From the NCBI GenBank assembly GCA_944324185.1, contig CALUVI010000008.1, forward strand, positions 1 through 57,169: a stretch of 57,169 nucleotides of DNA, written 5' to 3'. Position 1 is the stretch's first letter. Every line of letters starts with the position of its first letter. The notes under the pieces were generated by a model, which made no database searches, had not been told where the DNA came from, and saw only the letters and a program-made list of their open reading frames with translations. A program made the translations under genes and the position numbers. Below are positions 7,550-47,727 of this stretch, piece after piece. This DNA comes from Candidatus Gastranaerophilales bacterium (GTDB lineage: Bacteria > Cyanobacteriota > Vampirovibrionia > Gastranaerophilales > Gastranaerophilaceae).

Positions 7550-9121
7550 ATGGCTAAAGTCAAATCAAAATATGTATGTCAGAGCTGCGGATATGAAACA
7601 GCGGGTTATCTTGGTAAATGTCCGGAATGTGGAAGCTGGGGAACTTTTGTTGAAGAGTTAGATACTCCGGTTAAAAAGGCTGCACAAACAGAGCTTCCGG
7701 ATGATTTACCGCCGATGAGACTTGACGAGATTGAGATGAATTCTGAAATCAGGATGAGTACTAATATTTCAGAATTTGACAGAGTCTTAGGCGGGGGTAA
7801 ATGTATTGGGTCAGATGACGAGTCTACAGATTTGGCGTTATCAAACGGGGGTAAATGTATCGGGTCGGGTGATGAGACTACAGATGTGGCGTTATCCAAT
7901 GGTGGTAAATGTATTGGGGCGGCTTGTGGAGCTGCAAACAACGAGTCTTCCCTCGCCCCTTCGGGGAGAGGGTCAGGGAGAGGGGCTGAATCTAAATCAC
8001 AAGGGATTGTTAAAGGCTCGCTCGTCTTACTTGCAGGCGATCCGGGAATCGGTAAGTCAACACTTTTATTGCAAACCGCCGGCGAATTATGCAAAAGCGG
8101 GAAAAAAGTTCTCTATATTTCAGCGGAAGAATCAGCAGGTCAGATTAAATTAAGGGCTGAAAGATTAGAAGTAAAATCCGATAATCTTTACATTTATCCC
8201 CAGACAAATCTAGAGCTAATAAAAAAGCATATTGAAGAGATGATGCCTGATTTAGTTATTGTGGACAGTATTCAGGCTATTTACACTTCACAAATCCAGA
8301 GCTCAGCCGGAAGCGTTTCACAAATCAGGGAATGCTGCAATATGCTTATGCAGATTGCAAAAACCAAAAATATTTCAATAATTGTAATCGGGCATGTTAC
8401 AAAAGAAGGAAATATTGCGGGACCGAAGGTTCTTGAACACATGGTTGATACTGTTATTCAGTTTGAAGGGGATAAATATAAATCCTACAGGATTTTGCGT
8501 TCGATTAAAAACCGTTTCGGAAATACTTCGGAAGTCGGGATTTTTGAGATGGAAACTAAAGGCTTGAGAGAAGTTATTAATCCGAATGAACTTTTCTTAA
8601 AAGAATACAACCAGACCCAGACTCCGGGGAGTACGATTATTGTAACAAGCGAAGGTACCAGACCTCTTTTAGTAGAAATTCAGGCGCTTGTCGGAACAAC
8701 ACCTTATCCGGCGCCAAGAAGGATTGCAAACGGAGTTGATACGGGAAGAGTTTTGCAGATTCTTGCGGTTCTTGAAAAAAGAATCGGGCTAAATTTATCA
8801 AAGCAGGATGTTTATGTAAACGTTATCGGCGGAATTGATGTTAATGAGCCGGCTGCAGATTTAGGAATTGCGCTTGCAATCGTCACCTGTGTAAGAGATG
8901 TTGTTTTTGATTCCCACACGGCAATAGTCGGTGAAATCGGGCTTTCAGGTGAAATAAGGGCAGTTAATCATATTGAAAGGAGAATAACGGAAGCCCAAAA
9001 ACTCGGATTTAAGCGGATAATAATTCCGGCGGCGAATGAATTGCAGGAAGAGATTGAAGGAATTGAGATTGTGAAAGTCCGGAAAATTCTTGAAGCAATC
9101 ACAAGAGGGGTATCAAATTAG
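7550..9121 (+). CDS. radA: DNA repair protein RadA (Sms) with an in-frame repeat insertion
   Basis: RadA is a RecA-like ATPase/helicase that processes recombination intermediates. The N-terminal zinc finger is C10-x2-C13 ... C24-x2-C27. Walker A is GDPGIGKST (163-171) and the KNRFG motif follows at about 322. A Lon-like P-domain closes the protein. Ordinary RadA runs directly from RVLGGG to IVxGSLVLL. Here about 69 residues (84-152) are inserted between them. They consist of three 18-residue copies of KCIGS-x-D-E-x-T-D-x-ALSNGG type, the last truncated, then a Ser/Gly/Arg-rich piece. Without the insert the length is about 454 aa, normal for the family. The insertion is explained by DNA repeats at 7793-7998. 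Everything else looks intact. Confidence 0.93.
   Translation: MAKVKSKYVCQSCGYETAGYLGKCPECGSWGTFVEELDTPVKKAAQTELPDDLPPMRLDEIEMNSEIRMSTNISEFDRVLGGGKCIGSDDESTDLALSNGGKCIGSGDETTDVALSNGGKCIGAACGAANNESSLAPSGRGSGRGAESKSQGIVKGSLVLLAGDPGIGKSTLLLQTAGELCKSGKKVLYISAEESAGQIKLRAERLEVKSDNLYIYPQTNLELIKKHIEEMMPDLVIVDSIQAIYTSQIQSSAGSVSQIRECCNMLMQIAKTKNISIIVIGHVTKEGNIAGPKVLEHMVDTVIQFEGDKYKSYRILRSIKNRFGNTSEVGIFEMETKGLREVINPNELFLKEYNQTQTPGSTIIVTSEGTRPLLVEIQALVGTTPYPAPRRIANGVDTGRVLQILAVLEKRIGLNLSKQDVYVNVIGGIDVNEPAADLGIALAIVTCVRDVVFDSHTAIVGEIGLSGEIRAVNHIERRITEAQKLGFKRIIIPAANELQEEIEGIEIVKVRKILEAITRGVSN
7793..7998 (+). repeat. 54-bp tandem repeat plus GC-rich hairpin inside radA
   Basis: The motif GGGGGTAAATGTATTGGG and relatives occurs three times with TAAATG at 7798, 7852 and 7906, a period of 54 bp (18 codons). 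The first two units are full length; the third breaks off after about 20 bases. It is followed by a palindrome at 7950-7972, CCCTCGCCCC / GGGGAGAGGG around TTC. The same GGGGGTAAATGTAT core forms the intergenic arrays at 9633, 24598, 28397 and 47437, with different periods (49 and 56). Confidence 0.85.
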
Positions 9122-9463
9122 TTAAAGTGGTGTGGTAAATTTGTGATTTACCGCATTCTACATTTCTCACCTCTCCAATCGGAGAGGTCGCATTTGTGCG
9201 AGTGTTAGCGAGTTACAAATGCGGGTGGGGTTCTGTCAAAGTTAATCCCCATCCTAACCTGCTTGGTTGCCGGCGATAAATGAGTCTCCGGACTTTGCTT
9301 CCGCAAAGCTTCTTCACTCTCTGCCAACAATCCGCTTCCCCGATTGGGGAAGGAATGCGCTTGTGTCGTCTAATTAGTATGTAGTTTGGCTAAAACCCAA
9401 CAACAATATAGATTACCGCGAGAATTGAAGTTTTTCTCGCAATGACGCTAAGCGGGCAGCCCT

Positions 9464-9553
9464 AGTAGTGTGGAGCTTGCTCCACAGAATTTAAATTATA
9501 TAATAAATAATTAAAATTTTACACAATGCTTGTGGAGCAAGCTCCACACTACT
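9464..9553. repeat. REPIN-like element, copy 1
   Basis: Perfect 23-nt inverted ends at 9464-9486 and 9531-9553 begin AGTAGTGTGGAGC and surround an AT-rich 44-nt centre. Each end also holds its own small palindrome (TGTGGAGC / GCTCCACA). A GTAG tetranucleotide before a palindrome, in inverted pairs, is the architecture of REPINs mobilised by RAYT transposases. Confidence 0.8.
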
Positions 9554-9632
9554 GCCTAATTACTTGACATGTACAGCAATGACGACCGACTTGTAGGCTT
9601 ACTCCGTAACTTAAATCATTTCCCCCCGCTAT

Positions 9633-9825
9633 GACACCAAGCCGATAGTTTTACCTACCAACCTAATACATTTACCCCCTGGACACCCAGCCGGTAGTTT
9701 TACCTACCAACCTAATACATTTACCCCCTGGACACCAAGCCGATAGTTTTACCTACCAACCTAATACATTTACCCCCTGGACACCCAGCCGGTAGTTTTA
9801 CCTGCCAACCTAATACATTTACCCC
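9633..9825 (-). repeat. 49-bp tandem array, four units, two alternating types
   Basis: Units begin at 9633, 9682, 9731 and 9780, exactly 49 bp apart. Read on the minus strand each carries GGGGGTAAATGTATTAGG, so it belongs to the same family as the radA insert. Units 1 and 3 contain GACACCAAGCCGATAG; units 2 and 4 contain GACACCCAGCCGGTAG. This gives a 98-bp higher-order repeat and suggests duplication of a dimer. Confidence 0.9.
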
Positions 9826-9826
9826 T

Positions 9827-9852
9827 AAAAAAAAGACCTTGTAAAACCAAGG
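9827..9852 (-). terminator. Possible minus-strand terminator (small transcript?)
   Basis: On the minus strand CCTTG-6 nt-CAAGG is followed by TCTTTTTTTT. The stem is only 5 bp. No protein gene lies upstream on that strand before the divergent operon at 10019. A TTGACA at about 9928-9933 on the same strand could drive a transcript of about 80 nt ending here. The call is tentative. Confidence 0.3.
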
Positions 9853-10018
9853 CCTGTCCGTTTAAATAAGAAGAGAGAGCTTTATGCTTTTCTTAAAAAG
9901 CGTGAATAAAAAATTTTGCTAGTCAGATGTCAAATTTTTTACAAAACTTAACAAATATTTCTTTTTATTTTTGAACAAAAAAAAATATTTTTCGTTATAC
10001 TGATATAGAGGTTACAAA

Positions 10019-10366
10019 ATGGAAAATAAGTGTTCAAAATACGAAGGTTTATTTGTTTTTACTGATGATGAAACATTAAAGAAGCATCTTGCGGAATGTG
10101 AGGAATGCCGCAAAGAGCAGGAAAAAATGGACAGAGTTTCAGAATTAATAGGAGAAGTTAAGTCACATTATTATAAAAAAAGAGAAAAGAAACCTGTCTT
10201 AAAAATAGCCTGCGCTTTGATGCTGCTATTGTTTTCAACAGCCTCAATAGGTGTAATAGGAAATTATGATGCCATGATGGATACTATAGAATATGGTGAT
10301 ACTTTATCCGCAGAGGAGCTGGGATTTCCTGTCGATTCTTACGGACTCATAGTGGTGGATGAATGA
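10019..10366 (+). CDS. Zinc-finger anti-sigma factor, single membrane span
   Basis: The 115-aa protein has the ZAS/zf-HC2 pattern H-x3-C-x2-C in KKHLAECEECRKE (about residues 22-34), a charged linker, and one transmembrane helix at about 62-80 (VLKIACALMLLLFSTASIGVIG). The periplasmic tail is short and acidic. Such proteins hold an ECF sigma factor at the membrane until an envelope signal releases it. The partner follows immediately, overlapping by ATGA. GAGG lies 7 nt before the ATG and TATACT further up. The order anti-sigma then sigma is less usual than the reverse. Confidence 0.8.
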   Translation: MENKCSKYEGLFVFTDDETLKKHLAECEECRKEQEKMDRVSELIGEVKSHYYKKREKKPVLKIACALMLLLFSTASIGVIGNYDAMMDTIEYGDTLSAEELGFPVDSYGLIVVDE

Positions 10367-10877: not shown

Positions 10878-11435
10878 ATGAAAAAATTAGCAATTATGAT
10901 GTGTGCATTATGCATCGTATCATCAGCAGCTTATGCTGCCGGAGAAAAAATCGGCGGAGCCGAGGCTGCAACAAATGTGCAGACAACAAACGAAGGGATA
11001 AAAAATCCGCCTTCAAAAGAAGAAATGATTAAACTGAGAAAGGCAAGAGAAGCTGCCTTTGAACAGAAATTAGGTTTAACGGAAGCTCAGAAAGCAAAAG
11101 TTAAGGAGCTTCGTATTGAAGGTCGCAAAAAAATGAAACCAGTAATGGAGCAGATTAAATTAAAGAGACAGGAAGCAAGAGTAGTAAAATTATCAAGAAT
11201 TTCTGTTGAAATGCAGGAAGAAAAGCTTGCTGTAATTGATAAAGAGCTTGCAAAATTAGAAAAACAGGCAAATCAAATCAGAAAACAGAATATGAAAGAT
11301 TTTGAATCAATTTTGACAAGAGATCAAAAGAAGATTCTTAAGCAGATGAAAAAAGAAGGCAGGGAAAATTTTAAAAGAGGTCAGCGTCCATGCCCTCCGC
11401 CTTGCCCTCCTCAAGCAGACATTGAACAAAAATAG
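10878..11435 (+). CDS. Spy/CpxP-like periplasmic protein
   Basis: A signal peptide (KKLAIMMCALCIVSSAAYA) is followed by a long charged helical region. At about residues 68-80 it has LGLTEAQKAKVKELR, matching the LTxxQ motif of the CpxP/Spy family. These are periplasmic chaperones or sensors that respond to envelope or metal stress. Length 185 aa is normal. The C-terminus is a Cys/Pro-rich tail (CPPPCPPQ). The gene follows the sigma factor within 18 nt, with AGAGAGG before its ATG. Its last 35 bases and the terminator are duplicated at 12166. Confidence 0.8.
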   Translation: MKKLAIMMCALCIVSSAAYAAGEKIGGAEAATNVQTTNEGIKNPPSKEEMIKLRKAREAAFEQKLGLTEAQKAKVKELRIEGRKKMKPVMEQIKLKRQEARVVKLSRISVEMQEEKLAVIDKELAKLEKQANQIRKQNMKDFESILTRDQKKILKQMKKEGRENFKRGQRPCPPPCPPQADIEQK

Positions 11436-11477
11436 CATTATGGAAACGGGCGGGAAAAATTTCCCGCCCGTTTCTTT
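11401..11477 (+). repeat. 77-bp direct repeat, left copy (end of Spy-like gene plus terminator)
   Basis: This segment matches 12166-12242 at 73 of 77 positions by eye. It holds the last ten codons of the Spy-like gene and the whole terminator. The two copies flank the toxin-antitoxin cassette. Confidence 0.9.
11443..11477 (+). terminator. Rho-independent terminator of the sigma/Spy operon
   Basis: A 14-bp stem (GAAACGGGCGGGAA with its complement) and a 4-nt loop are followed by TTT. It starts 8 nt after the stop codon of the Spy-like gene. Confidence 0.9.
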
Positions 11478-11511
11478 ATAAATATGATTGTTTTGACATA
11501 GCGTTTGAGTA

Positions 11512-12165: not shown

Positions 12166-12242
12166 CTTGCCCTCCTGAAACAGATATTGAACAAAAATAG
12201 CATTATGGAAATGGGCGGGAAAAATTTCCCGCCCGTTTCTTT
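12166..12242 (+). repeat. 77-bp direct repeat, right copy
   Basis: It repeats 11401-11477 with four substitutions. It still encodes CPPETDIEQK and a stop, in place of CPPQADIEQK, although no gene body precedes it. The terminator (12208-12244) is preserved. Confidence 0.9.
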
Positions 12243-17907: not shown

Positions 17908-17910
17908 TTC

Positions 17911-18009
17911 AGTAGTGTGGAGCTTGCTCCACAAGCATCATATACGTTTTTCGTTTATATATAATTTAAATTTTGTGTTTAAATTTTGTGGAGCAAGCTC
18001 CACACTACT
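17911..18009. repeat. REPIN-like element, copy 2
   Basis: Perfect 23-nt inverted ends at 17911-17933 and 17987-18009 match copy 1 base for base and surround a 53-nt AT-rich centre that differs from copy 1. It lies 4 nt after the stop codon of the SulP gene. Confidence 0.85.
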
Positions 18010-24598: not shown

Positions 24599-24700
24599 GG
24601 GGGAAAATGTATCGGGTTGGCAAGTAAGACTACAAGTTCAATGTCCTCCGAAAGGGGGGGGAAATGTATCGGATAAATAAGTTAGCAGTAGTGTGGAGCT
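24598..24700 (+). repeat. Two GGGGGTAAATGTAT-family units and half a REPIN
   Basis: Two degenerate units (cores AAATGTATCGGGTTGG at about 24605 and AAATGTATCGG at about 24662) stand about 57 bp apart. Fourteen bases of the REPIN end (AGTAGTGTGGAGCT, 24687-24700) follow and stop at the centre of its small palindrome. The rest of the gap to 24885 shows no gene; a TTGTAAAGG lies shortly before the next start. Confidence 0.75.
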
Positions 24701-28396: not shown

Positions 28397-28603
28397 GGGG
28401 GTAAATGTACCGGGTTGGTTAGTAAGATTACAGGCTTGGCGTCCTCCGGAAAGGGGATAAATGTATCGAGTCGATTAGTAAGATTACAGGCTTGGCGTCC
28501 TCCGGAAAGGGGATAAATGTATCGAGTCGATTAGTAAGATTACAGGCTTGGCGTCCTCCGGAAAGCGGGTAAATGTATCGGGTTGGTTAGTAAGGCTGCA
28601 AGC
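28397..28603 (+). repeat. 56-bp tandem array of the GGGGGTAAATGTAT family
   Basis: TAAATG recurs at 28402, 28458, 28514 and 28570, exactly 56 bp apart. Units 2 and 3 are identical; units 1 and 4 differ slightly, and unit 4 is cut short by the REPIN at 28604. Shared parts with the radA insert include the TAAATGTAYCG core, GACTACAG/GATTACAG and TTGGCGT at matching distances. Confidence 0.9.
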
Positions 28604-28694
28604 AGTAGTGTGTAGCTTGCTCCACAATCATTGTTTAAGTTTTTGTCGGGTTTCACCAAACCTGCATTTCTTGTGGAGTAAGCTACACACTACT
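28604..28694. repeat. REPIN-like element, copy 3, with paired substitutions
   Basis: Ends at 28604-28626 and 28672-28694 pair over 23 nt. Compared with copies 1 and 2, the left end has GTGTAG for GTGGAG and the right end has CTACAC for CTCCAC, a double change that keeps the pair. A second difference leaves a G-T pair. The remaining bases to 28726 hold only a TTTACCCCC fragment, another remnant of the array family. Confidence 0.85.
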
Positions 28695-47375: not shown

Positions 47376-47727
47376 TAGTAACCTCTCGTTGTATTAATAG
47401 TATTCAAAAATGGAATAAAAGTAAAGGGGGGGGGGAGGGGTAAATATATTCGAGGTGGCAGGTAAGTGTAGTAGTGTGGACCTTGCTCCACAAGAAATGT
47501 CGGTCGGGCTTTAGTAAATAGTTTGGGCTTTAGCCTGACAAAAACTTACGCAATATTTGTGGAGCAAGCCCCGCACTACAAATTTACTGTCATTCTGAAC
47601 CAGATAACAATTAACGGGTGAAGAATCCCTTTATTATTTCCTTTACTACTCCCGTAATAAGAATCGTATATCAGAATTTCTTTGACATTAACTTAATCGC
47701 ATATTTTCATGTAAGTTAAATTTGTGT
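47376..47727. other. Intergenic stretch with repeat unit and REPIN
   Basis: This stretch separates the divergent pyrH and methionine gamma-lyase genes. A long G run at 47425-47440 leads into one TAAATATATT unit of the array family (47441). A REPIN follows. GGGCTTTAGCCTGAC at 47524 is a further short element seen in similar form near 34212. At 47588-47635 is CATTCTGAACCAG ... GGTGAAGAATCCC, a degenerate intergenic repeat. No gene is evident. Confidence 0.6.
47470..47580. repeat. REPIN-like element, copy 4 (diverged)
   Basis: The left end 47470-47492 and the right end 47558-47580 still pair over most of 23 nt but carry several substitutions (GGACC on the left, CCCCGC on the right). The centre of 65 nt is the longest of the set. 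Confidence 0.75.

Follow-up and report, generated by a model that had tools for sequence, protein, structure and literature searches.

In-frame copies of a small intergenic repeat within radA and two other conserved genes of Gastranaerophilales

The radA gene of a Candidatus Gastranaerophilales bacterium carries, shortly before the sequence encoding the Walker A motif, a stop-free insert built from tandem units of a repeat that otherwise lies almost entirely between genes. The same repeat is found in frame within gcvPB and mnmE, and the number of units varies among related species. We consider it very probable that this small intergenic repeat now and then enters loop or terminal sites of genes, where copies that are in frame and free of stops survive as tolerated linkers of variable length. 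The gene is located on contig C8 of a 1.97 Mb genome assembled in 67 contigs. The window that was analysed is this whole stretch of 57,169 nucleotides, and coordinates refer to it unless another contig is named.

The insert in radA

The radA coding sequence (7550-9121, plus strand) is an open frame of 523 residues that matches TIGR00416 with 587.5 bits, against a cut-off of 403, in a scan for the RadA (Sms) family. Its product displays the C4 zinc motif, Walker A, KNRFG and the Lon-like domain of that family, the catalytic motifs are invariant in 26 aligned RadA sequences, and it is the only full RadA encoded in the genome. Relatives without the insert read RVLGGG|IVQGS, with the bar marking the position at which 204 nucleotides are added here (7799-8002, plus strand; 68 residues, KCIG...SKSQ). 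When one glycine is included the insert measures 207 nucleotides and 69 residues, in agreement with the length of about 69 residues originally predicted.

TRF analysis placed an array of 2.4 copies, with a period of 54 bp, at 7792-7918. Two full 54-bp units occupy 7792-7845 and 7846-7899 (both plus strand; model matches of 42.7 and 45.9 bits, respectively), and they are followed by a third, partial and diverged, at 7900-7945 (plus strand); the original prediction of three units thus stands for the first two, while the third is incomplete. A GC-rich hairpin, CCCTCGCCCC-TTC-GGGGAGAGGG, which belongs to a second repeat family, follows within the RadA frame at 7950-7972 (plus strand). The insert ends 11 residues before an intact Walker A motif, GDPGIGKST (8036-8062, plus strand). 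The TRF array, the open frame and the comparison with relatives together confirm that a 54-bp repeat and a GC-rich hairpin lie in frame inside radA, ahead of Walker A.

Pneumococcal RadA, in which Walker A comprises residues 95-103 and the ATPase domain residues 65-275 (PMC11612176), aligns (5LKM) up to residue 84 and resumes from residue 84, indicating that the insert is absent there. Judged from the aligned sequences, the insert is inside the ATPase domain but outside the catalytic motifs. In an AF2 model the insert had pLDDT values of 22-28 and no secondary structure; because the model is weak overall (mean pLDDT of only 53.8), disorder of the insert is only suggested.

The repeat family and its known counterparts

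The repeat unit is a non-palindromic sequence of about 50-56 bp (5'-GGGGTAAATGTATYGGGTTGGTAGGTAAAACTACAAGYTTGGYGTCATTGCG), whose start, GGGGTAAATG, is sharply defined and whose end, near GTCATTGCG, is looser. A sequence model built from 26 units, with both RadA units included in the training, gave 165 matches in the genome at E<=0.1, nearly all of them intergenic. In the related Candidatus Gastranaerophilales MAGs G028, G035, G053 and G052 it gave 147, 187, 121 and 25 matches, respectively, and of the family's 79 genomes only 6 had matches at a stricter threshold. When two mismatches were allowed at most, a 15-mer core was matched 167 times in the genome versus 10 times for the reversed control; the repeat family is far above chance. 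Stretches of this genome sampled around repeat matches gave 180 distinct hits, counting fragments, and the ones inside bona fide genes lay in radA, gcvPB and mnmE.

Most arrays have periods between 49 and 62, and periods of 52-53 are the commonest. Within the window, intergenic arrays of the radA repeat are found at 28397-28604 on the plus strand (period 56) and at 9633-9825 on the minus strand (period 49), along with a pair of units at 24600-24676 (plus strand). Both periods had been proposed for intergenic arrays of the window, and both were borne out (28397-28594, and 9633-9825 on the minus strand). RNAalifold returned no consensus base pairs for the 26-unit alignment, and hence no conserved stem; no terminal inverted repeat was seen on the repeat unit, and an Rfam scan produced no match on the RadA insert, only generic hairpin matches on the REPIN. 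The RadA junction is G-rich, such that a 3-bp duplication is indistinguishable from the GGGG of the unit itself.

The hairpin family occurs about 20 more times in the genome, and in places it encloses units of the first family, which then directly follow CCCTCTCC or CCCTCGCC. Single units nested exactly in the hairpin family, before a G-rich partner (e.g. GGGAGAGGG), were observed around C7:36167, C12:38642, C17:30448, C20:36998 and C44:454, and these sites may represent natural unit ends. The genome also contains two Y1 transposase ORFs, of which the RAYT-like one (C15:247-576) is flanked on both sides by GTGGAGC REPIN palindromes, not by the 54-bp repeat. REPIN-like elements, consisting of inverted pairs of GTAG-tagged palindromes GTAGTGTGGAGCTTGCTCCACA, identical to those around the RAYT-like ORF, are present in the window at 9463-9555, 17910-18009, 28602-28694 and 47469-47579, and also at L141. 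Elsewhere in the window there is a 77-nucleotide direct repeat pair (11401-11492 and 12166-12242; 95% identical, 765 bp apart) that ends in a strong GC-rich hairpin, GGGCGGGAAAAATTTCCCGCCC.

Small dispersed repeats located in frame within protein genes are known as RPE in Rickettsia and WPE in Wolbachia (PMC10969869, PMC2229807, PMC4224334), and WPE-like inserts occur in the recombination genes addA, addB and priA (PMC4224334). The radA repeat resembles them in combining intergenic copies (among about 165 hits) with in-frame copies in unrelated conserved genes (radA, gcvPB and mnmE), in its recurring peptide and in its apparent tolerance by enzymes. RPEs are palindromes of 105-150 bp, about half of them intragenic, whereas the radA repeat is about 52 bp long, tandem and almost always intergenic, and its unit number varies between sister species. 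The 26-unit alignment revealed no palindrome or stem-loop with terminal inverted repeats, the adjacent second element alone being a hairpin. Because its unit is not palindromic, the radA repeat is no RPE member by structure, with RPEs compared by description, and its host belongs to a different phylum; the parallel drawn in the original prediction holds for the way of working, but not for membership.

GTAG/CGTC REPs are likewise found inside ORFs, often as several units encoding 20-82 residues, and many of the genes concerned act in DNA repair and tRNA modification (uvrA, uvrB, recB, truB; PMC3733652). The likeness to the radA repeat lies in the multiple units within ORFs and in the frequency of repair genes. 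However, REPs are tagged stem-loops linked to RAYTs, whereas the 54-bp unit has no conserved stem, does not consist of GTAG palindromes in inverted pairs and is not RAYT-linked. Intragenic ERIC and Correia elements are small open-frame repeats fused in frame with host genes (reviewed in PMC2229807), but neither their terminal inverted repeats nor their target duplications were recognised for the radA repeat. Small in-frame repeats in conserved genes are therefore already established (RPE, WPE, REPs), and the tandem, non-palindromic form described here works alike. Within the library of papers that was searched, none dealt with repeats of this kind in Gastranaerophilales.

The repeat in related genomes and in other genes

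The proposed alignment of RadA from relatives revealed presence, absence and variation in copy number. There are three radA units in the genome under study (G000; the third partial), two in each of the sister species G028 and G035 (inserts of 150 and 141 nucleotides, respectively, with the hairpin as in G000) and none in G053, the next relative of G028 and G035, whose radA has no insert. RadA identity between the insert-bearing sister species is 95-97%. When 65 genomes of the genus were scanned by pattern for an insert of any kind at the radA boundary, 4 had one. The outgroup G052 has its own 51-nucleotide radA insert, RGKCISAANSTTSELCQ, at the boundary used in G000. In a three-gene tree, in which node support within the clade is uneven, G052 branches outside the insert-free G002, G063 and G053; for this reason two separate radA insertions would be the simpler reading by parsimony, with one gain and later losses a possible but less simple history.

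Downstream of radA, the repeat-rich stretch 9122-10030 differs from the corresponding sequence at L092, L096, L094 and L098, which have a common downstream gene, and this places it at a rearrangement point.

Looking for the repeat inside other coding sequences, as had also been proposed, identified in-frame copies in two further genes that, from their conserved sequence, we take to be gcvPB and mnmE. In GcvPB the units follow MKTIFE and number three, three, four and two in G000, G028, G035 and G053, respectively, with none in the other relatives read. In MnmE they are situated between MNI...NKIF and KFKHGFIVD and number one, three and two in G000, G028 and G035, with none in G053 and G054. Copy number in both proteins differs between close species by whole-codon steps. 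The inserts in all three genes are in frame and stop-free, and every capture reads GGT AAA TGT AT(T/C), encoding GKCI, a frame that 86 of 173 units keep open over 54 nucleotides. More units are open in a reverse frame than in GKCI, but the reverse frame searched gave no real capture. Because the protein query comprised the GKCI frame of the unit plus one reverse frame, and so covered two reading frames, the uniform use of GKCI is due in part to ascertainment.

MnmE contains a second, adjacent insert, in which a CCCTCCC...GGGGCGGGG hairpin element is combined with a short tandem repeat of the TCACTCAGTCACT type (peptide SVTQSLSHS). It is in frame (L054, L204, L205), and its length in G035 is unlike that in G000 and G028. 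HemW (C17, about 24010) was considered as a fourth capture and rejected, the match being weak (E 0.15) and G063 and G002 having a loop of equal length without similarity to the repeat. Open frames over units upstream of enolase, together with several spurious ORFs of 120-240 residues, were judged non-coding.

Origin and fate of the insert

Among the three sister species, dN/dS was 0.02-0.06 for the RadA core and 0.38-0.66 for the insert (few sites). The core is under strong purifying selection and the insert is much less constrained. Translation of intergenic units would yield mostly GKCIGLVGKTTSLASLRG; the peptide of captured units tends to be GKCIG(S/A/L)(A/G/D)(D/G)E(T/S)T(S/D)LA(S/L)S(N/G). 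The mean GRAVY is -0.42 for captured peptides versus +0.04 for intergenic translations (Mann-Whitney p=0.003, with the units being related and non-independent). This hydropathy shift suggests that captured peptides either drifted or were mildly selected toward a soluble linker, and the choice of donor among intergenic variants could lie partly behind the K-to-E difference.

The comparison of relatives and the search of other coding sequences both favour capture of an intergenic repeat in frame within radA, as the original prediction held. A non-palindromic repeat of about 50-56 bp is dispersed between genes, also as tandem arrays, within one subclade of a Gastranaerophilales genus, and a rare copy would land inside a conserved gene (radA, gcvPB, mnmE). 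Survival would be restricted to loop or terminal sites and to copies that read G-K-C-I... and whose total length is a multiple of three; other coding insertions, we infer, were purged. After capture, units would be gained or lost in whole-codon steps, presumably via slippage or recombination, and the captured peptide would drift toward small, polar, acidic residues. Most likely the RadA insert appears in the protein as a flexible surface linker that is tolerated and leaves the enzyme working, although translation, toleration and surface exposure are what we infer from the sequence. Because the insert is weakly constrained and variable in length, toleration is favoured over modulation; both had been put forward at the outset, and modulation found no support.

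A domesticated, functional role for the insert, as a regulatory segment that repeat copy number would tune in RadA (and likewise in GcvPB and MnmE), is unlikely. Such a role would fit the retention of captures in three sister species, a convergent polar and acidic shift in separate genes, an insert dN/dS below 1 and a RadA site struck twice by parsimony. Against it, unit number and sequence vary between species that are 95-97% identical in RadA, dN/dS of the insert is roughly ten times the core value, and most species of the genus have no insert. We give similarly little credence to the idea that the in-frame tandem units in the three genes constitute a length-variable tuning device, with whole-codon steps in copy number altering enzyme behaviour and the RadA G-G-G/I-V boundary acting as a recurrent insertion hotspot beside the nucleotide site. 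Removal of the insert before the protein works, either as an RNA-level intervening sequence or through ribosomal bypassing, is highly improbable: the insert adjoins the conserved ATP-binding core and has a hairpin, but the frame is kept without stops in three genes and in three or four species, which removal would not need, 68 residues is far below intein size, and Rfam had no match on the insert.

The two outcomes that the original prediction had named as fatal to it are scarcely credible. Although every genome here is a MAG made up of short contigs and containing repeats, an assembly or binning artefact is at odds with three separate assemblies (our own, BRZ_KP bin30 and A6_L3 bin.29) that share the insert at the identical base, with flanks and frame intact, differing unit numbers and diverged units. 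Nothing was found in favour of an old RadA domain resembling the repeat by chance; the insert is absent from nearly all relatives and from pneumococcal RadA and is not conserved in distant relatives, and its unit 2 matches the genomic repeat model with 45.9 bits (both RadA units among the 26 training units).

In summary, we favour capture of an intergenic repeat, a process that is best known in core genes from Rickettsia, Wolbachia and some proteobacteria and that would extend to gut Gastranaerophilales. It also serves as a warning that odd insertions in MAG proteins can derive from repeats rather than domains. The sister species, with 0-4 units in three enzymes, offer a natural series that may indicate how much lengthening is tolerated by a conserved ATPase, GTPase and decarboxylase, and that may likewise be informative on the amelioration of captured junk peptide.
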